DNA of 64,000 nucleotides, taken from contig CALVFJ010000002.1 in NCBI GenBank assembly GCA_944326795.1, forward strand, positions 1 through 64,000. Direction: 5' to 3'. Below are positions 37,690-62,016 of the stretch, piece after piece. Numbering within the stretch: position 1 is the stretch's first letter; every line of letters begins with the position of its first letter. The notes beneath the pieces were generated by a model. That model saw only the letters and a program-made list of their open reading frames with translations. It had not been told where the DNA came from and ran no database searches. Both the position numbers and the translations under genes were made by a program. The stretch comes from an uncultured Erysipelotrichaceae bacterium (lineage in GTDB: Bacteria; Bacillota_I; Bacilli_A; Erysipelotrichales; Erysipelotrichaceae).

Positions 37690-37710
37690 AAATTGAAGGA
37701 GTGTGATATC

Positions 37711-38682
37711 GTGAATAAGCAGAAAAAGATCGTTATCGGCATTATTGCCGCATGCTTGCTTGTCGCCTTAACGGTGCTGGGTTTTTTATTATTTGCCCCT
37801 GCCAACAACGATAGCTCGCCACAGGAAACTGCCAAACCAACATTGTCTACCGTAGTAGGGCAGGATAAACCGGATGCCAATACGGCTTTTGATGGCATTA
37901 ACATCGATCTGGTCGATTATACGACATATAAATTTGATGATTTAGATTTTAATTTTGTGATTGCAAGGATCAGAGTAAAAGCTAATGGTCCTACTAATAT
38001 TGGGCTTGAGCATTTTAAGACCAGCGAAGGTATCAATTTAGCTGATTATGCTGCTTATGTATCAGCATTGGAAGAAAAATCATATTATCTAGGTAAACAA
38101 AATGTTTGGTATGAACTGGTCTCGTTGGAAGATGAATATTTTAGTCAGATCTTTATTCCTATCAATAACAAAGATCTAGAAAACATAGAGGTTACCAATG
38201 ATATCGATCAAACCGTGATGAGCTTTGATCTAAACAAAAACAGCGGAACCAAGGAAATGCTGCAATATGTCGCTAATGATGTCATTAGTGATGGCAAGAC
38301 CTATCAATTGCAGGTATCGAGCGCTTTTGATATCAGCGGTGAACAGCTATATCAAAATGGTACGGAATATCTAGTTCCGTCGACCGTAGGTATCTATTGT
38401 TTTAATCTTGATGTCATCAGCTTATGGAAAGATACCGTAGTGATCGAAGAGGCTTATTATTATCCTAATAACAGCGATGAGGTCTTTAAGACTCTTGATT
38501 CTTCGATAAGCGCCATGAAGCATGAAAATATCATCGGTAAGGAAATCACGGAAAAAAGTTCGGGTTCATTATTTTTTGAAGCATATAATCCGATGAATAA
38601 TCCGATAACATATACGGGTGTACTAAAGTTAAAGATCAGCGGTAGCGATACGTTGATCGAAGTAAATGTCGATCTAAACTAG
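37711..38682 (+). CDS. Membrane-anchored extracytoplasmic protein of unknown function
   Basis: I do not recognise a family. About 323 residues: a short basic N-terminus (NKQKKI), one membrane helix (about residues 6-27, rich in Ile/Leu/Ala) and an exported part of about 290 residues rich in Asp, Asn, Tyr and Ser without cysteine clusters. It looks like two beta-sandwich-like halves. The helix has no lipobox, so it is an uncleaved anchor or an ordinary signal peptide. The start is GTG at 37711 with AAGGAG 8 nt upstream; an in-frame TTG at 37693 is the weaker alternative. It lies 13 nt upstream of the large glucosaminidase gene with no terminator, so the two are co-transcribed. Confidence 0.75.
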   Translation: MNKQKKIVIGIIAACLLVALTVLGFLLFAPANNDSSPQETAKPTLSTVVGQDKPDANTAFDGINIDLVDYTTYKFDDLDFNFVIARIRVKANGPTNIGLEHFKTSEGINLADYAAYVSALEEKSYYLGKQNVWYELVSLEDEYFSQIFIPINNKDLENIEVTNDIDQTVMSFDLNKNSGTKEMLQYVANDVISDGKTYQLQVSSAFDISGEQLYQNGTEYLVPSTVGIYCFNLDVISLWKDTVVIEEAYYYPNNSDEVFKTLDSSISAMKHENIIGKEITEKSSGSLFFEAYNPMNNPITYTGVLKLKISGSDTLIEVNVDLN

Positions 38683-38695
38683 GGGAGGGTAACAA

Positions 38696-41600
38696 GTGAA
38701 GAAATTAATCAAAATATTATTATCGGTCTGCCTGGTTTGGTCAGTGCTGACAGTTTGCCATAAAGATTTTGTGCAGCAGGTAGAAGCTTATGATTTTACC
38801 TATGCCATGAACTGCAGCAATTATGAGGTCGATACGGTAAGAGATGATGGTGGCTTTCAAAGTTATGGCTGCTATGCCAATTTCAATGATGCCAAAGCTA
38901 AGATGAATGAGCTGGGCAAAGATGCGGTGGTACGTCATCCATCTAGCAAATCACCAACCAAGATCATTGCCATGGTTTCGGGGACAGCATATAGCTATCC
39001 ATCACGTTATGGCAAGAATACTTTGGATATTACGCAATATAATGGTAATGTTGCAAATCAGAAGACAACTTATGTAACGATGCACCGCGAGCTTTATTAT
39101 CAAGGAACAGAAAGCTATGATGGCAATGGAGAAGGCGTCATCCATATCAATGTTACAGGTTTTGATGGTTATACAACGTTAAAAGGTGTCGATCTGATCC
39201 CTACAAAATATACGGAAAAAGAAATACCGATCATGTTAGGAGGAAATAATAGCGGAAGCTATACCGAACAGCCATTCATGACCCATATCTATAAGGCTGA
39301 ATATGTCGTTGAACAAAGTGGTAACTATCGTGATCTAGTTTTTTATTGGTATAGCGGATGGAGCGATGCTTCGACCTATCCTACCAAAAACCGTCATGCG
39401 ATTGGATTGGCGCCTGATTGGATGGAAACGGGAAAGAAATATTATTCATATGATGGTTATACTTTTTATAGCGATGCCTATTATCAAAATTATGTAGGTA
39501 CATATTATAACTATTATCAATTTTTGCCTTTAAGATCACAAAGTAATATTGCGGCAAACGTCTATAATACTTTTTTAAGCTCAAAAGGATATAATTCTTC
39601 AAGCAAACTGTGGAATCAGGGACAGACGTTTATCGATGCTCAAAACACCTATGGCGCTAATGCCTTATTGGTATATGCGATGGCTTGTTTGGAAAGCGCC
39701 TATGGAACAAGTTCATATGCGCAGCAGCGAAATAATTTGTTTGGATGGAGCGCATATGATTCTGATCCTGATTCAGCTTCTTATTTCTCCTCGGTTGAGC
39801 AGGCAATCAAGGAGCATATGGGGATCAATCTGCGTGGCTATCTAGATATCAATGATTATCGATTCTTTGGACCGCAGCTTGGTAATAAAGGATCAGGAAT
39901 TAATTTAAAGTATGCTGCCGATCCGTATTGGGGCTATAAGATCGCTGCGATCGCTTATGATATCGATAAATGTGCGAATGGCTATAATGGTAATTTGACG
40001 GATTATAACAAATATTCGTTGGGTGTCATCAATACTTATGGCGTGGCGATCAAGCAAAGCGCAGATAATAATTCTAAGACTTTATATACTTCACAATATG
40101 GTGCAACTTATCAAAAAAATTTCATGGTAACGATTCTAAGTGAATCAAGTAATTTTATCAAGACCAATACGGTCAATCCATTAAGCGGATCAAGCGTGAT
40201 CAGCGGTACCGACAAGGGCTTGGTTAACTATGATTTTAATAGCAGCGTAGGATATATCCAGGTAAATTATGTCGATAAAGTAAGCCAAGGATCAAATGTT
40301 CAAGAAGGAACGACACCTACCGGGGACTTTGTATTTAAGATCACTAATTTTGCTTGGAATGAAAATAGCTTGAATATCAAGGGAGAAGCTTATCAACCTG
40401 GCATATATGTGACCCAAAGCAATACCTTGAAACATCGGTTATTGTTAGAAAATAGTTATCTTGAACAAAAAGAATATGCTTTAACATCAACTAGCAACAA
40501 AGATTATGCAACCTTTGAAACTAATCTTGATGTTTCGCAATTAGCTGATGGCAGTTATAAATTCATGATTGATTATATGTATGGTGAATTTAGCGAATTT
40601 AATGGTTATAAATATCTGCAAGGTTTAGAATTACCAGCTGAAAAAGTTGTAGGTAATAAAAAGATAACCTTCAGCAAGCAAGATGAATTAGTAATCATGA
40701 CGGTTCAAACCGTAAATGATCCTTCACCTGAACCAACTGAGACCCCTGATCCAAGCGAAGATCCAGAGGAAACACCTGATCCAAGTGTTAAAAAGACCGT
40801 GGCGGTTGCCCCAACGAAATTTGATTATGTTGATGGCAATATTTTGGAAATCGTTGGTACGGCAATGATAAAAGGCATGGATGCTAAAGAAGGAACTGAT
40901 ATAAAGCATGAAATAGTCTTTATTGATAGCGAAAGCGGTAAAGAAATTAAGAATTATACTGCTTCAACGACTAAGAATGTGATTAATCTTGGCGATGGCT
41001 ATGCATATGAGATGACACAATTTGCGACAAAGATCAATATCCAGGAATTAGTAGACGCTGGATATGCTAATTATACGATCATGATTCGTATTACTAATGG
41101 TGATACCGTAATGAGCGATAATATCTTGAATACCGAATTTTTGAACTTACCTGCTGCTAAACAGCTTGATGGTAAAAATGTATATTTTATCAATAATCAA
41201 GATTATCGTTTCCGTTATGAATTGTTGATCAATAATATCGATATTGATTGGAGCACGATCAAAAAAGCTAATCAGCGAAATTCTTTATATTCTAGCCTTG
41301 CTTTGAGCATCGATGCTGATGAAAATTTAACGACAGAAGCCGCTAGCTGGATTTATAATATTGATTATGATGATGCCTCAAAGATTACATATCAATTTAT
41401 CTTAGCTGATATTAATTCTGGCAAAACTTATGAATTGAAAGAAAGTAAGGCTCAAGCTTGCGCGATTAATTATTCGCAAGTCATGAAACTTTCTTATGAT
41501 TATTCTAATGCTTGTTTCAAAGAGGTTAATTCTTTGAGCAATATTCCTGATGGAAGCTATATCGTATATATGGAAATCATTAATGGTGATTATCACGATA

Positions 41601-41797
41601 TCTTTGAAGTTACAGATTACTATGATGAGATGAATCTTGATGTAACAGCAAAGAATACAGGACGTAATTTCAAGCTTGCTAAGAGCAGCGTTAGAGATAG
41701 GGTTATATTAACTATATCTTCTGCTAAAACAAGCGCAGAAACGACAGAAAATGCATCAGATGCCGATACAACAGCAACTGCTGATATTACAGAGTAA
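38696..41797 (+). CDS. Secreted N-acetylglucosaminidase (GH73-type) with Ig-like domains
   Basis: A 1033-residue exported cell wall hydrolase. Signal peptide 1-32; an N-terminal region of about 250 residues shared with a second hydrolase at 59.2 kb, including YYSYDGYTFY and YYNYYQF. The glucosaminidase domain is at about 290-430 with probable catalytic E333 (CLESAYGTSS) followed by RNNLFGW and DPYWGYKIA. SH3-like and two or three repeated Ig-like modules follow, split by a Pro/Glu/Thr linker at about 677-702 with two PDPSE-like repeats. No LPxTG or membrane anchor is seen at the C-terminus, so it is released or wall-bound non-covalently. GTG start with GGGAGG upstream. Confidence 0.87.
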   Translation: MKKLIKILLSVCLVWSVLTVCHKDFVQQVEAYDFTYAMNCSNYEVDTVRDDGGFQSYGCYANFNDAKAKMNELGKDAVVRHPSSKSPTKIIAMVSGTAYSYPSRYGKNTLDITQYNGNVANQKTTYVTMHRELYYQGTESYDGNGEGVIHINVTGFDGYTTLKGVDLIPTKYTEKEIPIMLGGNNSGSYTEQPFMTHIYKAEYVVEQSGNYRDLVFYWYSGWSDASTYPTKNRHAIGLAPDWMETGKKYYSYDGYTFYSDAYYQNYVGTYYNYYQFLPLRSQSNIAANVYNTFLSSKGYNSSSKLWNQGQTFIDAQNTYGANALLVYAMACLESAYGTSSYAQQRNNLFGWSAYDSDPDSASYFSSVEQAIKEHMGINLRGYLDINDYRFFGPQLGNKGSGINLKYAADPYWGYKIAAIAYDIDKCANGYNGNLTDYNKYSLGVINTYGVAIKQSADNNSKTLYTSQYGATYQKNFMVTILSESSNFIKTNTVNPLSGSSVISGTDKGLVNYDFNSSVGYIQVNYVDKVSQGSNVQEGTTPTGDFVFKITNFAWNENSLNIKGEAYQPGIYVTQSNTLKHRLLLENSYLEQKEYALTSTSNKDYATFETNLDVSQLADGSYKFMIDYMYGEFSEFNGYKYLQGLELPAEKVVGNKKITFSKQDELVIMTVQTVNDPSPEPTETPDPSEDPEETPDPSVKKTVAVAPTKFDYVDGNILEIVGTAMIKGMDAKEGTDIKHEIVFIDSESGKEIKNYTASTTKNVINLGDGYAYEMTQFATKINIQELVDAGYANYTIMIRITNGDTVMSDNILNTEFLNLPAAKQLDGKNVYFINNQDYRFRYELLINNIDIDWSTIKKANQRNSLYSSLALSIDADENLTTEAASWIYNIDYDDASKITYQFILADINSGKTYELKESKAQACAINYSQVMKLSYDYSNACFKEVNSLSNIPDGSYIVYMEIINGDYHDIFEVTDYYDEMNLDVTAKNTGRNFKLAKSSVRDRVILTISSAKTSAETTENASDADTTATADITE

Positions 41798-41829: not shown

Positions 41830-41872
41830 AAAAAAGATACCATCTGCTATTGGGCAAATGGTATCTTTTTTT
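41830..41872. terminator. Bidirectional terminator for the convergent PASTA gene
   Basis: A 14-bp perfect stem (AAAAAAGATACCAT and its complement) with a 14-nt loop. On the minus strand its T tract follows the PASTA gene stop; on the plus strand it backs up the preceding terminator. Confidence 0.85.
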
Positions 41873-43982
41873 AGCCAACGATCTTAACAGTGATCGTTTG
41901 ATTGATATTTATACGAGTATTTGGAGCAGGATCGATAGATAAGATCTTTCCAGCACTAGCACCGCTAGCTTCTTCAGATGATACTTTAACAAAATTTAGA
42001 TTATTTCCTAATCCAACAGCAGCATAAGCATTTTTCACATTAGCTACTGCGCTGTCATAAGAATCAGAACTTAAGATTCCTAAACTAATGTTTGGTGTGG
42101 TTACATAAGTTAATACACAAGAATTGCTATTACTATCATATTCATAGTCGACATTGTTACATGTGCAATTTCCATTACCAGGACCGGTTGCATCAGCAGG
42201 GCAAGCTTGGATAGGTTTTGGACCTTTAGATAATACAACTTTGATCGTAGTGCCTTTGGCAACGGAGCTACCTGCTGCTGGGCTCATTGATACGACCTTG
42301 CCAGCTTCAACATCGCTATAATCAGCTTGTGTTGATACTTCATAATTTAAGCCATCGATCGAGCATTTGGCAACATTTCCACATGGATTGGTTGTGAAGC
42401 TTGGAACGGTCACATAAGCACCACTTGAAACTTTACAGGTTATGGTCTTACCACTAACGCTGCAAGCTTCGGTAATGATGCCTTGCTCATAGCTAGTTTG
42501 TCCGACATCAGTTTTATTTAGGGTCCATCCTGCACCTTTGCTGTTAGCAGCATTGATCTCATTTTGCAGATTGCTGAAAGCTTTGCCAGCTTGGTATAGA
42601 TCAGAACTAGGGCCACCATAGGCGCCTAAGGAAACAACATAATTAATGGAAGAGCCTTGAGCCTTGGTTCCGGTATCATTAGAAATGATATTTCCTTTAG
42701 CGATAGAATCGTTATATTGCTCAGAACGGGATCCAGCGTTCATGCCATTATTGCTTAGATAAGTTTTGAAATCAGTTTCTGATTTACCGGCATAACTAAC
42801 GATATCGACTGATTTTCCTTTGGCAAAGGTAACTACGATATTTGTGCCAGGTGGAACCATTTCCGTTCCTGAAATCGTTTTGCCATTGATGGTAATAGCT
42901 AAGATGGTATCAGCTGTTTTATCGGAATCTTTTTCAGTAAAGCTGATATTGATCTTTGCAGAGCTATTGTATAGGGTGTTGATACCATTGATATAGGTAA
43001 CAAATTCTTGCTTTGATCGATCTGTATAATTGTTGATCGGTACATAGCCAACCGATACTTCAAAGGTTACGGTCGAGCCAGATTTTAAAGTACCGTTTGA
43101 AGGAGTTTGGGCAATAACGGTTCCTTTGGTCTTTGCACTATAATATTCTTTAATGGTATATTTTAAATCGTTCTCTTTAGCCCAAGCAACAGCATCGCTA
43201 GAGCTTTTGCCAACCTGACTTTTTACGCTGATACCAGTACCACTTGATAAGACGACGGTAACTTTTTCACCAGTCTTGGTTTTTTCTCCAGCTTTTGGTG
43301 TTTGAGAAATTACCTTGCCTTCGGCGATGGTCGTGCTTGCTTCTTCTTCAAAAGTTACGCTCATAAGATTTTCTTTGGCCCATGCTTGGATATTGGCTTT
43401 GGTATAATCACTGAAATCTGGCATGGTTATTTCAAGTCCAAGTGCATCTTCACCAGCTGATATGCTTACTAATATCAAAGCATTGCGCTTAGCTTTATTG
43501 CCATCGATATTGATCTTAACGAATTTACCTTTTTCGATTTCTTCACTGATGACATATTCAAAGGTTACGTCGGTAAATTTATTATCTTCGAACCATTTTT
43601 TGATCTCATCTTCGGTCTTATCTTTAAAATCAATTAATTCGATTTCTTTTTCTGGATCAGGACCATTGCTGATGACTAGCTTTAAAGGGGTATCTTTGGT
43701 GATATATTCTTCAACCTTTAGATTTTGCGAAACGACATGATCTTTTTCGATATCTTCATCAAACTCATATGAAATTTGATAAAGTTCTTCCGGGATCTTA
43801 TTTTCTTCGATCCATGTTTCGACCTCAGTTATGCTTTTTTCTCTTAGATCGATAACTTTATATTTGCTTCCTGGATCAGCAATCAGGAAGATATAGGCAA
43901 CGATCGCTACGATCATGAATAAAGCGATGGAAACTCCCGCTAAGATGTAGGTCGTTTTTCGGCTTTGAAAATTAATGCTCAT
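41871..43982 (-). CDS. Membrane-anchored multi-PASTA protein without a kinase domain
   Basis: 703 residues: a short cytoplasmic start (MSINFQSRKT), one membrane helix (11-34), then about nine tandem PASTA-like repeats of about 65-75 residues. Repeat ends such as GKVISQTPKAGEKTKTGEKV and GKVVSMSPAAGSSVAKGTTI are diagnostic. PASTA modules bind muropeptides or beta-lactams and usually follow a Ser/Thr kinase (PrkC) or a penicillin-binding protein; neither domain is present. The last third has eight cysteines, including a Cys-rich spacer (ACPADATGPGNGNCTC), which suggests disulfides outside the cell. GAGGTATGAT precedes the ATG. It is divergent from tex and convergent with the glucosaminidase gene. 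Confidence 0.85.
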   Translation of the reverse strand: MSINFQSRKTTYILAGVSIALFMIVAIVAYIFLIADPGSKYKVIDLREKSITEVETWIEENKIPEELYQISYEFDEDIEKDHVVSQNLKVEEYITKDTPLKLVISNGPDPEKEIELIDFKDKTEDEIKKWFEDNKFTDVTFEYVISEEIEKGKFVKINIDGNKAKRNALILVSISAGEDALGLEITMPDFSDYTKANIQAWAKENLMSVTFEEEASTTIAEGKVISQTPKAGEKTKTGEKVTVVLSSGTGISVKSQVGKSSSDAVAWAKENDLKYTIKEYYSAKTKGTVIAQTPSNGTLKSGSTVTFEVSVGYVPINNYTDRSKQEFVTYINGINTLYNSSAKINISFTEKDSDKTADTILAITINGKTISGTEMVPPGTNIVVTFAKGKSVDIVSYAGKSETDFKTYLSNNGMNAGSRSEQYNDSIAKGNIISNDTGTKAQGSSINYVVSLGAYGGPSSDLYQAGKAFSNLQNEINAANSKGAGWTLNKTDVGQTSYEQGIITEACSVSGKTITCKVSSGAYVTVPSFTTNPCGNVAKCSIDGLNYEVSTQADYSDVEAGKVVSMSPAAGSSVAKGTTIKVVLSKGPKPIQACPADATGPGNGNCTCNNVDYEYDSNSNSCVLTYVTTPNISLGILSSDSYDSAVANVKNAYAAVGLGNNLNFVKVSSEEASGASAGKILSIDPAPNTRININQTITVKIVG

Positions 43983-59232: not shown

Positions 59233-62016
59233 ATGATGAAAAAAATTATAAGCTTGATATTATCTATATTGCTTTTAAGCGATGGCGTCTATGCGCTTGG
59301 CTTTGAAGATATCATATATGATGAAAATTATGCGCTTGTAAGTGTGGATAGCGATGGAATAACGACCATCACACAAGCCGATGATTTTAACAGTGCTTTG
59401 ACCCTTTTTGAACAGGAAAAAGATCATTATGATAATTTAGGAATTACTAAAGATGGCATATTTTATAAAGTTGAGCATGGCATCGTAGCTTTGCATAAAA
59501 GCGATGCTTGTGATGTCAATGTGGAATTTGTTAATAAAATAGATGGCAGCAGTAACTATGTTAATGGCTGTTATGGCAATGATGGTGCTTATTTGACTAC
59601 TCGCGATGACATGAAAGTAGAATTTAAGATCTCGGGAGTCGTTGGTGTCGCTGATTTTGCTGATGTGACCATCATACCGTTAGAATTTTTAAATGATACT
59701 AGTTTGAGTATCTATAAAAATATTGATGGTAATCTATATCATCAGATCAAAAATGATGTAGCAAATGATTATTATAGCAATTTGATCAACTTAGGACCTT
59801 CACCGGCATATTTAGTACAAGATGTTTCATACTATAGCTATGATGGTCATTATTTTTATGAAGACATCAAAACCTTATTAGATGATTATAAAAATGGTAG
59901 TTATGCCAACAGCATCAATGTTAGTGAACCATACTATAATTATTATCAGTTTGTTTCGCATCGAACCTTAACTAATATCACGCAGCAACAGATGGAAAAG
60001 TATCTTCATGAAAGCTTGCTTATCGACGATGTCATCTATAGTTATGAAGATATGGATAAAGATAGTGCTGATGACAGCTTGACCAGATCACAGTTCTATG
60101 GCAGTGAATTTGCTTTTTATCAATATCAGTATCAATATGGGGCTAATGCTGCGATGATGATCGCTTTAGCGATGAATGAAAGTGCTTATGGGCGCAGCTC
60201 ATTGGCTTTTACACGCAACAATTTATTTGGGCATGCGGCTTATGACAGTGATGTCGAACGAAATGCGTCGCGATATTTAAGCGTGCCTTCCAGCATCTAT
60301 AGCCATGCTAAATACTACATTTCGGGAACTTATTGTTATCCTAGCAAGTTTCAGTATCATGGTGGTTTCTTTGGCAATAAGGCCAGCGGCATGAACGTAA
60401 GTTATGCATCTGATCCTTATTGGGGCGAAAAAGCCGCGCAATATTATTACAAATTGGATGAAGCTTTAGGGTTTAAGGATAAAGATGCCTACACGCTAGG
60501 AATTAATTTAGATAGCGATCCGATCGATGTCTATCAATTTTCTGATCTTAACAGTCAGATCTTATATCAAAGCAATGCTAATGAAGATTATGCTTTTGTT
60601 ATCTTAGAAGCTTTTGACGTTAATGGCCACAGTTGGTATAAGATCCAAAGCGATGCTAGTCTTGATCAAGACAGTACGGTAGAATTGCTTTATGATTATG
60701 ATTTTGCGAATCATGTTGGTTATATCTTGCAAGATAGCATTGAATTGGTGCTAGCGGGCAACAATGAGCCGCAGACTTATGTAAATGTAAGTTTTGATGC
60801 CAATGGGGGAACTTTTAAAGATGGCTCATCTTATATCAGTTACAATATGCCGCAAGGGATCCCAAGCATCGAAGAACCAACCAAGGATCATGGCTTATTT
60901 ATCGGCTGGGATCAACAGCTATCATCGATCACAGAAGATACGGTCTATGTTGCCCAATATAAAGAGGTAGCAAGCATTGAGATGCTTGCTTTGCCAAAAC
61001 AAGCTTATGAGGTCAATGAAAGGATCGATCTAACAGATGGTACGCTTAAAGTTAATTTTAGCGATGGCAGCAACGAGGAAGTGCAGCTTAACACTGCGAT
61101 GGTTTCCGGCTATGATCTATCAAGCGCTTCAGATCAGGAAGTATTGGTTACATATGGCGGAACCACCGTTACTTATCCCATCAGCGTTTCGCAAGAATTA
61201 GATGATCTACGCAAGGAGATAACCGCCCAGATCGATGTTATCCTTACCCTTGATCCAAACGCTTTAACTGATGAGGATAAAACAAGGATCTTAGATCTTA
61301 AGCAACAGATCAACGATGGTATCCAACCATATTTAAGTTTTGAAAAATTAAGAGCTTTAGATAAGCTGATGTACGCAGCTATCGATGGAATGATCCAGTA
61401 TCGGGTTAGCAGCGATATCAGCGTCAGCGGCTTATCGCTGGTCATTCCCTTAAAAGATTCGTTAAGTAAAGATTGGTTAAAGGACTTTTATAGCTTGACC
61501 AAAACCGGCGGTGCTCATCAGGATATCTTGAAGCAAGTTGCTGAAGCTAATGGATATACGATTCACGATACTTTTGGCATCGATATCCGCAATCGTTTAG
61601 AAAAAATAGAAGTTGATGAACCAATGATCATCAGTATTCCCAAGCCGGAAGGTTATGGGGCAAATGAGATGTTCAAGGTCTTAAGTTATCAAGATGGTGA
61701 AGTAAGAGAATGCTATACGACCCAGACCGATAATTATGTACAATTCATGAGCGATGGGAATGCCGATTATTTATTGGTATCCAAAACGAGTGCTAATGAT
61801 TATGCACAAGCAGATATCCAAGAAACGATCAATCAAGAAAATAGTGAAACCGATATTTTGACGATCATTGGTTTTGTCGCTTTTGGCATCTTAATGATCG
61901 TGATCATGATCATGATCGCACTAAAGATCAATAGAAGGATGAAATATGATTCAAAAAAACGTCGCATTAAACAAGATCAAATATCAGAAGATGACGATAG
62001 CGCCCGAACTGCTTGA
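59233..62016 (+). CDS. Membrane-anchored glucosaminidase-domain protein
   Basis: A 927-residue exported hydrolase related to the one at 38.7 kb. Signal peptide 1-21; a shared N-terminal region with YYSYDGHYFY and YYNYYQF; glucosaminidase domain at about 275-420 with probable catalytic E316 (MNESAYGRSS) and RNNLFGHAAY, then DPYWGEKAA. After an SH3-like stretch come a Listeria-Bacteroides-type repeat (VSFDANGGTF), a bacterial Ig-like repeat (YEVNERIDLTDGTLKVNFSDG), a helical part and one C-terminal membrane helix (about 876-898) with a basic-acidic tail. It is therefore tethered to the membrane, unlike its paralogue. GAGGT precedes the ATG; a second ATG follows directly. Confidence 0.87.
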   Translation: MMKKIISLILSILLLSDGVYALGFEDIIYDENYALVSVDSDGITTITQADDFNSALTLFEQEKDHYDNLGITKDGIFYKVEHGIVALHKSDACDVNVEFVNKIDGSSNYVNGCYGNDGAYLTTRDDMKVEFKISGVVGVADFADVTIIPLEFLNDTSLSIYKNIDGNLYHQIKNDVANDYYSNLINLGPSPAYLVQDVSYYSYDGHYFYEDIKTLLDDYKNGSYANSINVSEPYYNYYQFVSHRTLTNITQQQMEKYLHESLLIDDVIYSYEDMDKDSADDSLTRSQFYGSEFAFYQYQYQYGANAAMMIALAMNESAYGRSSLAFTRNNLFGHAAYDSDVERNASRYLSVPSSIYSHAKYYISGTYCYPSKFQYHGGFFGNKASGMNVSYASDPYWGEKAAQYYYKLDEALGFKDKDAYTLGINLDSDPIDVYQFSDLNSQILYQSNANEDYAFVILEAFDVNGHSWYKIQSDASLDQDSTVELLYDYDFANHVGYILQDSIELVLAGNNEPQTYVNVSFDANGGTFKDGSSYISYNMPQGIPSIEEPTKDHGLFIGWDQQLSSITEDTVYVAQYKEVASIEMLALPKQAYEVNERIDLTDGTLKVNFSDGSNEEVQLNTAMVSGYDLSSASDQEVLVTYGGTTVTYPISVSQELDDLRKEITAQIDVILTLDPNALTDEDKTRILDLKQQINDGIQPYLSFEKLRALDKLMYAAIDGMIQYRVSSDISVSGLSLVIPLKDSLSKDWLKDFYSLTKTGGAHQDILKQVAEANGYTIHDTFGIDIRNRLEKIEVDEPMIISIPKPEGYGANEMFKVLSYQDGEVRECYTTQTDNYVQFMSDGNADYLLVSKTSANDYAQADIQETINQENSETDILTIIGFVAFGILMIVIMIMIALKINRRMKYDSKKRRIKQDQISEDDDSARTA

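Follow-up and report, generated by a model that had tools for sequence, protein, structure and literature searches.

A conserved, kinase-free PASTA rod encoded beside a LytB-like glucosaminidase in Erysipelotrichaceae, and its possible role as an enzyme dock

The means by which Gram-positive cells restrain and position their own wall-cutting enzymes are still not settled. In Streptococcus pneumoniae, the PASTA repeats of the kinase StkP permit the localization of the glucosaminidase LytB at the septum (accessible text of PMC8262956). A LytB-binding region has been defined within the terminal PASTA domain of StkP (accessible text of PMC6428115), and this terminal domain directs LytB (accessible text of PMC6428115, PMC6593474 and PMC8262956). 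The StkP-LytB pair is difficult to interpret, since StkP is active in signalling as well. The window analyzed here, the first 64,000 nucleotides of contig CALVFJ010000002.1 from an uncultured Erysipelotrichaceae bacterium of the gut, contains a gene, here named C, that encodes a PASTA array without a kinase, next to the gene of a wall glucosaminidase, B. The question is what such an array does there. A first-pass annotation had offered three roles: partner of a muropeptide sensor, spacer reaching through the wall, or scaffold for hydrolases.

The coordinates of C, of its parts and of its neighbours A and B are collected in Table 1. The open frame around C has 713 codons and the start codon is ATG. 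In-frame stops lie directly upstream, so that no kinase domain has been overlooked on the 5' side. PASTA (PF03793) is the only Pfam family above cut-off in C, with seven stretches (1.6e-51, 172.5 bits against 23.2). The Pfam scan gave no Pkinase or transpeptidase match to C, and listed no cohesin at E ≤ 1; as a control, the PASTA-containing penicillin-binding protein (PBP) of the same genome was matched by the transpeptidase model at 3.8e-56. The NCBIfam model of PASTA kinases (NF033483) scored 181.7 bits on C against a cut-off of 450, and matched through the PASTA part. An overlooked kinase, considered as a candidate, is excluded by the Pfam scan and the upstream stops.

The AlphaFold model of C (pLDDT 85, pTM 0.37) consists of nine units in a row, most of them formed by a helix and three strands. 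The low pTM is expected for a flexible rod. In a fold search with this model, every PDB chain with Z ≥ 8 comes from a PASTA protein. The best match, 5e12, covers three linked domains (Z 12.2, r.m.s.d. 12.4 over 195 residues), and the single-domain match 3ouv gives Z 11.0 and an r.m.s.d. of 1.7 over 65. C is thus a kinase-free PASTA rod, as the first-pass annotation had described it on the basis of one membrane helix followed by repeats; the ORF, Pfam, the model and the upstream stops agree on this, the repeats are PASTA, and neither a kinase nor a transpeptidase domain had been missed. The annotated count of "about nine" repeats is fair: PF03793 and HMM searches of the sequence find seven, and AlphaFold nine units. 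About ten N-terminal residues are taken to be cytoplasmic, with an orientation of the helix that would place the array outside the cell. PASTA units measure about 3–4 nm each. From these dimensions, the rod is roughly estimated at some 30 nm, long enough to cross much of the wall.

The individual units were located with a repeat profile that was seeded with PrkC, the PASTA kinase of this genome, and comprises PASTA proteins other than C from the assembly and its relatives. Seven repeats were found in C: units 1 to 4 and 6 with the limits given in Table 1, residues 544–587 within unit 8 and, weakly, residues 661–700 within unit 9. The reversed sequence of C scored 0.9 bits. In the alignment of C orthologues, 27 of the 33 invariant columns lie at or before residue 312, that is, in the membrane-proximal units. 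The conservation thus peaks near the membrane and not at the tip of the rod, which counts against docking of B in particular, since a wall precursor or A could equally be the ligand there. Promoter-like sites at the locus number 11, against 9.0 (s.d. 3.0) in shuffled sequences, and terminator-like sites 1, against 2.2, and these counts offer no basis for further conclusions.

The eight cysteines of the first-pass annotation are present, all between residues 507 and 622 (507, 516, 534, 540, 594, 606, 608 and 622), and they differ in conservation. Cys507 and Cys516 occur together in 21 of 29 C orthologues and singly in none, one row having X at both places. Cys534 and Cys540 are both present in 15 of the 29, and one of them is found alone in a single orthologue. 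The four cysteines of the insert (594, 606, 608 and 622) are found all together only in the genus of the window (the window, G003, G004 and G005); single cysteines of this set occur in L048 and L070. B has a pair of its own, 40/59, present in 25 of 26 aligned proteins. By their sequence pattern, the exported pairs 507/516 and 534/540 of C and 40/59 of B look like disulfides formed outside the cell. Searches of family genomes for disulfide machinery found VKOR in 0 of 95 and DsbB in 0 of 57.

Table 1. Positions in the window of genes A, B and C and of their parts (residue numbers in brackets).
Feature	Positions	Strand	Basis
Gene A (329 aa), membrane helix and two beta-sandwich domains, immediately before B	37693..38682	+	Model pLDDT 88; fold matches
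Gene B (1033 aa), LytB-like GH73 glucosaminidase, exported, no dockerin	38696..41797	+	Pfam 3e-15; PDB
GH73 catalytic domain of B (310-423), Glu333	39623..39964	+	Pfam; PDB alignment; B alignment
Gene C (703 aa), PASTA array with membrane anchor and no kinase	41871..43982	-	ORF; Pfam; AlphaFold model
Membrane helix of C (9-34)	43881..43958	-	Model helix 8-34; hydrophobic stretch 9-40
PASTA unit 1 (45-107)	43662..43850	-	47.2 bits; model
PASTA unit 2 (118-177)	43452..43631	-	28.4 bits; model
PASTA unit 3 (187-248)	43239..43424	-	61.1 bits; best Pfam stretch 185-246
PASTA unit 4 (257-312)	43047..43214	-	38.9 bits; Z 11.0, r.m.s.d. 1.7 over 65 with PknB PASTA domain
PASTA-like unit 5 (318-389)	42816..43031	-	2.7 bits only (342-389); helix and three strands in model
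PASTA unit 6 (397-453)	42624..42794	-	27.8 bits; model
PASTA-like unit 7 (469-521), holds Cys507/Cys516	42420..42578	-	Model only; Cys pair co-varies in 29 orthologues
PASTA unit 8 (537-587), loop with Cys534/Cys540 instead of helix	42222..42374	-	35.3 bits; model
Cysteine-rich insert (588-626; Cys594, 606, 608, 622)	42105..42221	-	Orthologue alignment
PASTA-like unit 9 (634-702)	41877..42083	-	11.4 bits; model

The assembly of the window (1.44 Mb, 81% complete) encodes four PASTA proteins: C, a kinase, a transpeptidase and a paralogue, C2. The kinase PrkC has three PASTA units and lies beside a PP2C phosphatase gene, on a contig other than that of C. The transpeptidase is a PBP with two PASTA units, encoded beyond the window on the contig labelled C2 (L011:3668-5851). 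The paralogue C2 (L009:3494-5320) is a second kinase-less protein with a single membrane helix and PASTA units, which makes the earlier statement that PASTA arrays normally sit on kinases or PBPs too strict. It lies next to FtsX/MacB-like ABC permeases, with an ATPase gene wherever the sequence extends far enough, and in several loci near a UvrB-like gene. The C2 family is also found in L054, L056, L058-L062 and L064. Among the PASTA kinases of L010 and L027-L041, three units were counted in 3/3 proteins of family f1, and in family f2 four units in 9/12 and three in 3/12. These counts hint at a possible loss of a LytB-binding unit.

As already annotated, C lies tail to tail with the wall glucosaminidase B, with 73 bases between the gene ends. 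The best solved relatives of B are 7pj3 and 4q2w (2.5e-23, B residues 240–427), deposited as "putative endo-beta-N-acetylglucosaminidase", which we take to be pneumococcal LytB; the autolysin Atl matches B at only 5e-4. Glu333, which aligns with a LytB glutamate, is conserved in all 26 B proteins aligned. The Pfam LytB WW-like domain is matched in 1 of 31 B proteins. In the B protein of the window, Pfam lists no dockerin at E ≤ 1. The window also encodes a second GH73 glucosaminidase (59233-62016, + strand). Its N-terminus resembles a signal peptide, and its C-terminal part holds a hydrophobic stretch of its own (871–903), which may tether this enzyme in a third manner, besides the two kinds of rod described here.

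No Pfam family reaches the cut-off in A. Its second domain folds like MPT63 and Bacillus lipoproteins (YjhA, YcdA and YxkC), with matches to 1lmi (Z 11.0, r.m.s.d. 2.9 over 122), 3cfu (Z 10.8, r.m.s.d. 3.8 over 125) and the YxkC entry 9a4z (Z 9.0, r.m.s.d. 4.1 over 123), which is a model of a complex with DacA. These matches show a common fold and imply no function. The literature matches listed for YxkC-DacA contained nothing relevant.

C belongs to an Erysipelotrichaceae cassette composed of A, B and C. A was matched in 83 of 195 family genomes. Of the 86 A places, 77 have a same-strand B match within 3 kb downstream; the contigs of the other 9 carry no typed B. Of the 99 typed C places, 46 have B at a distance of up to 8 kb, and in 36 of these the distance is at most 1.5 kb. 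B is upstream of C on the same strand at 28 of these 46 places and convergent with it at 18; the divergent arrangement was not encountered (0 of 46). The remaining typed C places have no typed B on the contig (49/99) or are far from B (4); many of the C places without a nearby B look like the second PASTA-only family, C2, or contig ends. The reading of 20 further loci with B, most of them with A, added five genomes in which a PASTA C follows B, bringing the total to 51 genomes. In ten same-strand loci, the gaps between the longest ORFs range from -31 to 19 bases, both for A-B and for B-C. There are departures from this arrangement. C and A-B are on separate contigs in G066, both well inside; B and C are separated by 2.4–3.7 kb and other genes in L067, L077 and L078; and C is kept apart from B in L071/L072. 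In G002, a genome of the window's genus that is 99% complete, A and B are present and the sole match to C is the C2 paralogue.

The presence of the cassette outside the family was considered and rejected, strong matches of the A profile being found in family f1 only. In an order sample of 148 genomes, 54 were matched, 49 of them in f1 and the other 5 at E-values of 3.6e-4 to 8.4e-4; in a class sample of 296 genomes, 21 were matched, 17 of them in f1 and the other 4 at 3.5e-5 to 9.2e-4. A phage or mobile origin of C was likewise rejected. A tblastn search in phages returned five records with 27–29% identity over about a quarter of the protein, of which the one examined is unannotated, and the 73 stretches matched in viral contigs include no relative.

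One alternative is a frozen gene order. A, B and C would then be found together since the whole GalE-A-B-C-Tex region is conserved, without any cooperation between the products. GalE and Tex do flank the cassette in several genera, and Tex also follows the other rod gene described below in 4 of 6 loci with its long form. Yet the linkage of A, B and C tends to persist through changes of the flanking genes and of the direction of C: C is found beside B in both orientations while Tex and other neighbours vary, the same-strand genes abut or overlap, and the kind of rod goes with the presence of a dockerin on the enzyme. This explanation is considered very unlikely.

This other rod was encountered in relatives. 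In L096, L098, L113 and L114, the gene after B encodes a different rod, named X. A shorter X-like ORF follows B in L106, and in L102 the ORF after B is cut by the contig end and has no match to X. X-like matches occur in 57 of 195 family genomes. At 34 of the 79 typed X places, a same-strand GH73 match precedes X by at most 3.5 kb; the 33 genomes concerned do not overlap with the 51 that have C near B. The two rods are thus mutually exclusive beside B in these genomes. Twelve X loci were added to the initial four, and the 16 loci read comprise six long and ten short X. X ends in a hydrophobic stretch in 16/16 cases and begins with one in 15/16; the start of X is signal-peptide-like. Cadherin-like repeats are present in the eight X proteins scanned whole (8/8), and Pfam PASTA is absent from X. 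Open frames of about 2400–5500 aa with many X-like repeat matches are found in genus g73 (G205:C22, G208:C1 and G211:C11).

The enzymes beside X end in a dockerin: Dockerin_1 is matched in 16/16 GH73 enzymes beside X, against 0/31 from PASTA-type genomes (E ≤ 0.01). For 30 of these 31 B proteins, C is on the stretch that was read; for that of L071, C is elsewhere in the genome. When the heads of the six long X were scanned alone, three matched Pfam Cohesin above the cut-off of 24.1 bits: L098 (36.9 bits, 5.1e-9), L114 (32.6 bits, 1.1e-7) and L096 (25.0 bits, 2.3e-5). The head of L126 falls just under it (22.8 bits), and those of L113 and L127 gave no match, nor did the three short X heads scanned (L116, L118 and L122). 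Whole-protein scans of long X had listed no cohesin; the match appeared with the head alone. The PDB list obtained with the profile of the long X head is led, weakly (0.0024), by cellulosomal scaffoldins. With cohesin heads on X and dockerins on the enzymes, the enzyme should, in at least some relatives, dock on a membrane rod through a cohesin-dockerin bond.

The dockerin pattern bears on the idea that C is a mechanical spacer or surface rod that merely spans the wall, its location beside B reflecting co-expression. C is indeed a rod of nine units, and another membrane-anchored rod stands in the same place elsewhere. But the distribution of the dockerin, present on the enzyme with X and missing with C, ties the rod to the enzyme and not to length alone. 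A spacer function by itself is thus regarded as unlikely, while the rod shape suits a reach through the wall, which may be part of the same job as docking.

A tree of 47 GH73 cores places the X-type enzymes at two positions. The six long-X enzymes cluster with support of 95/94, and two PASTA-type enzymes join this cluster at 97/85. A precedes B in four of the six loci with long X (no A was found in the other two, L113 and L127), and Tex, which often follows C in PASTA-type loci, comes after X in four as well. The tree, A before B and Tex after X are more readily explained by one rod having been exchanged for the other at a single gene position than by two systems of unrelated origin. The evidence from short X is weaker: the ten short-X loci carry GH73 enzymes that are a diverged branch, and have no A in the stretches read.

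A further alternative casts C as a co-receptor, which would bind muropeptides or lipid II and, via PASTA-PASTA contacts, hand these ligands to the separate PrkC or form a pair with it. The genome does encode a three-unit PrkC as well as a PP2C phosphatase, the membrane-proximal units of C are the most conserved, and PASTA domains bind muropeptides and lipid II (accessible text of PMC8262956). Such a co-receptor would nevertheless expose no more than some ten residues to the cytoplasm; PrkC is encoded on a different contig here, kinase motifs occur in 0 of the 478 ORFs listed from the neighbourhoods read, and the place beside B can be taken by X, a rod without Pfam PASTA. This possibility is rated as distinctly unlikely, and the annotated role of partner of a muropeptide sensor has no direct support. 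Of the roles first offered, the comparative sequence evidence favours the hydrolase scaffold, as C accompanies the LytB-like B in two orientations and, in some relatives, a different anchored rod comes after a dockerin-bearing enzyme.

On balance, C is probably a membrane-anchored docking scaffold for the neighbouring LytB-like glucosaminidase; we infer that it binds B through a site on the rod. The N-terminal helix would hold C in the membrane, and the rod of about nine PASTA units would pass into or through the wall, where these units could bind uncross-linked peptidoglycan. The rod, probably by its distal half, would hold B and limit where and how far the enzyme cuts, and in this way C would control cell separation or wall turnover. 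A, the second membrane protein with two beta-sandwiches, would be the third member. In design, C would match the pneumococcal kinase StkP, in which the last PASTA unit guides LytB to the septum, but without the kinase domain.

A broader proposal is put forward more tentatively, as a possibility that falls short of being probable: the PASTA array would replace the cohesin as docking module for a wall hydrolase. Within one bacterial family, a LytB-like enzyme would be attached at the membrane through a bond between dockerin and cohesin in some members and through a PASTA rod lacking a kinase in others, and these solutions, unrelated to each other, would have been swapped at one gene position. 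If this is true, PASTA is a hydrolase-docking domain in its own right, and the kinase-linked case is a special one. Since PASTA stands here alone beside its likely enzyme, and since a cohesin-dockerin bond, a well-understood interaction, seems to fill its place in relatives as a natural control, the notion of PASTA as a hydrolase dock becomes directly testable. In the literature, no kinase-less PASTA protein paired with a hydrolase was among the matches listed, which consisted of titles and beginnings of abstracts, with most subscription journals outside the coverage, and this is no proof of absence.

C can be compared with several known systems. Like StkP with LytB, it combines a membrane-anchored extracellular PASTA array with a LytB-type GH73 glucosaminidase. 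It differs from StkP by the absence of a kinase, by about nine units instead of four, by a gene located beside that of the enzyme, by the third protein A and by the cysteine pairs. The single helix followed by a PASTA array is common to C and the PrkC/StkP/PknB kinases, the orientation in C being presumed, whereas their cytoplasmic kinase domain is absent. With the PASTA PBPs (PBP2x and S. aureus PBP1), C shares the PASTA fold but not the transpeptidase domain. The C2 family resembles C in its single membrane helix and PASTA units without a kinase, and differs in a longer cytoplasmic head of about 115 residues and in its neighbours. As in the cohesin-dockerin scaffoldins, C is a membrane-anchored repeat rod whose gene comes after that of the enzyme it should hold, and in some related genera a rod with a cohesin head, next to a dockerin-bearing enzyme, occupies this position. 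Unlike the scaffoldins, C is made of PASTA units and not of cohesin and cadherin-like repeats, it is anchored by its N-terminus and not by its C-terminus, and the B of the window carries no dockerin.
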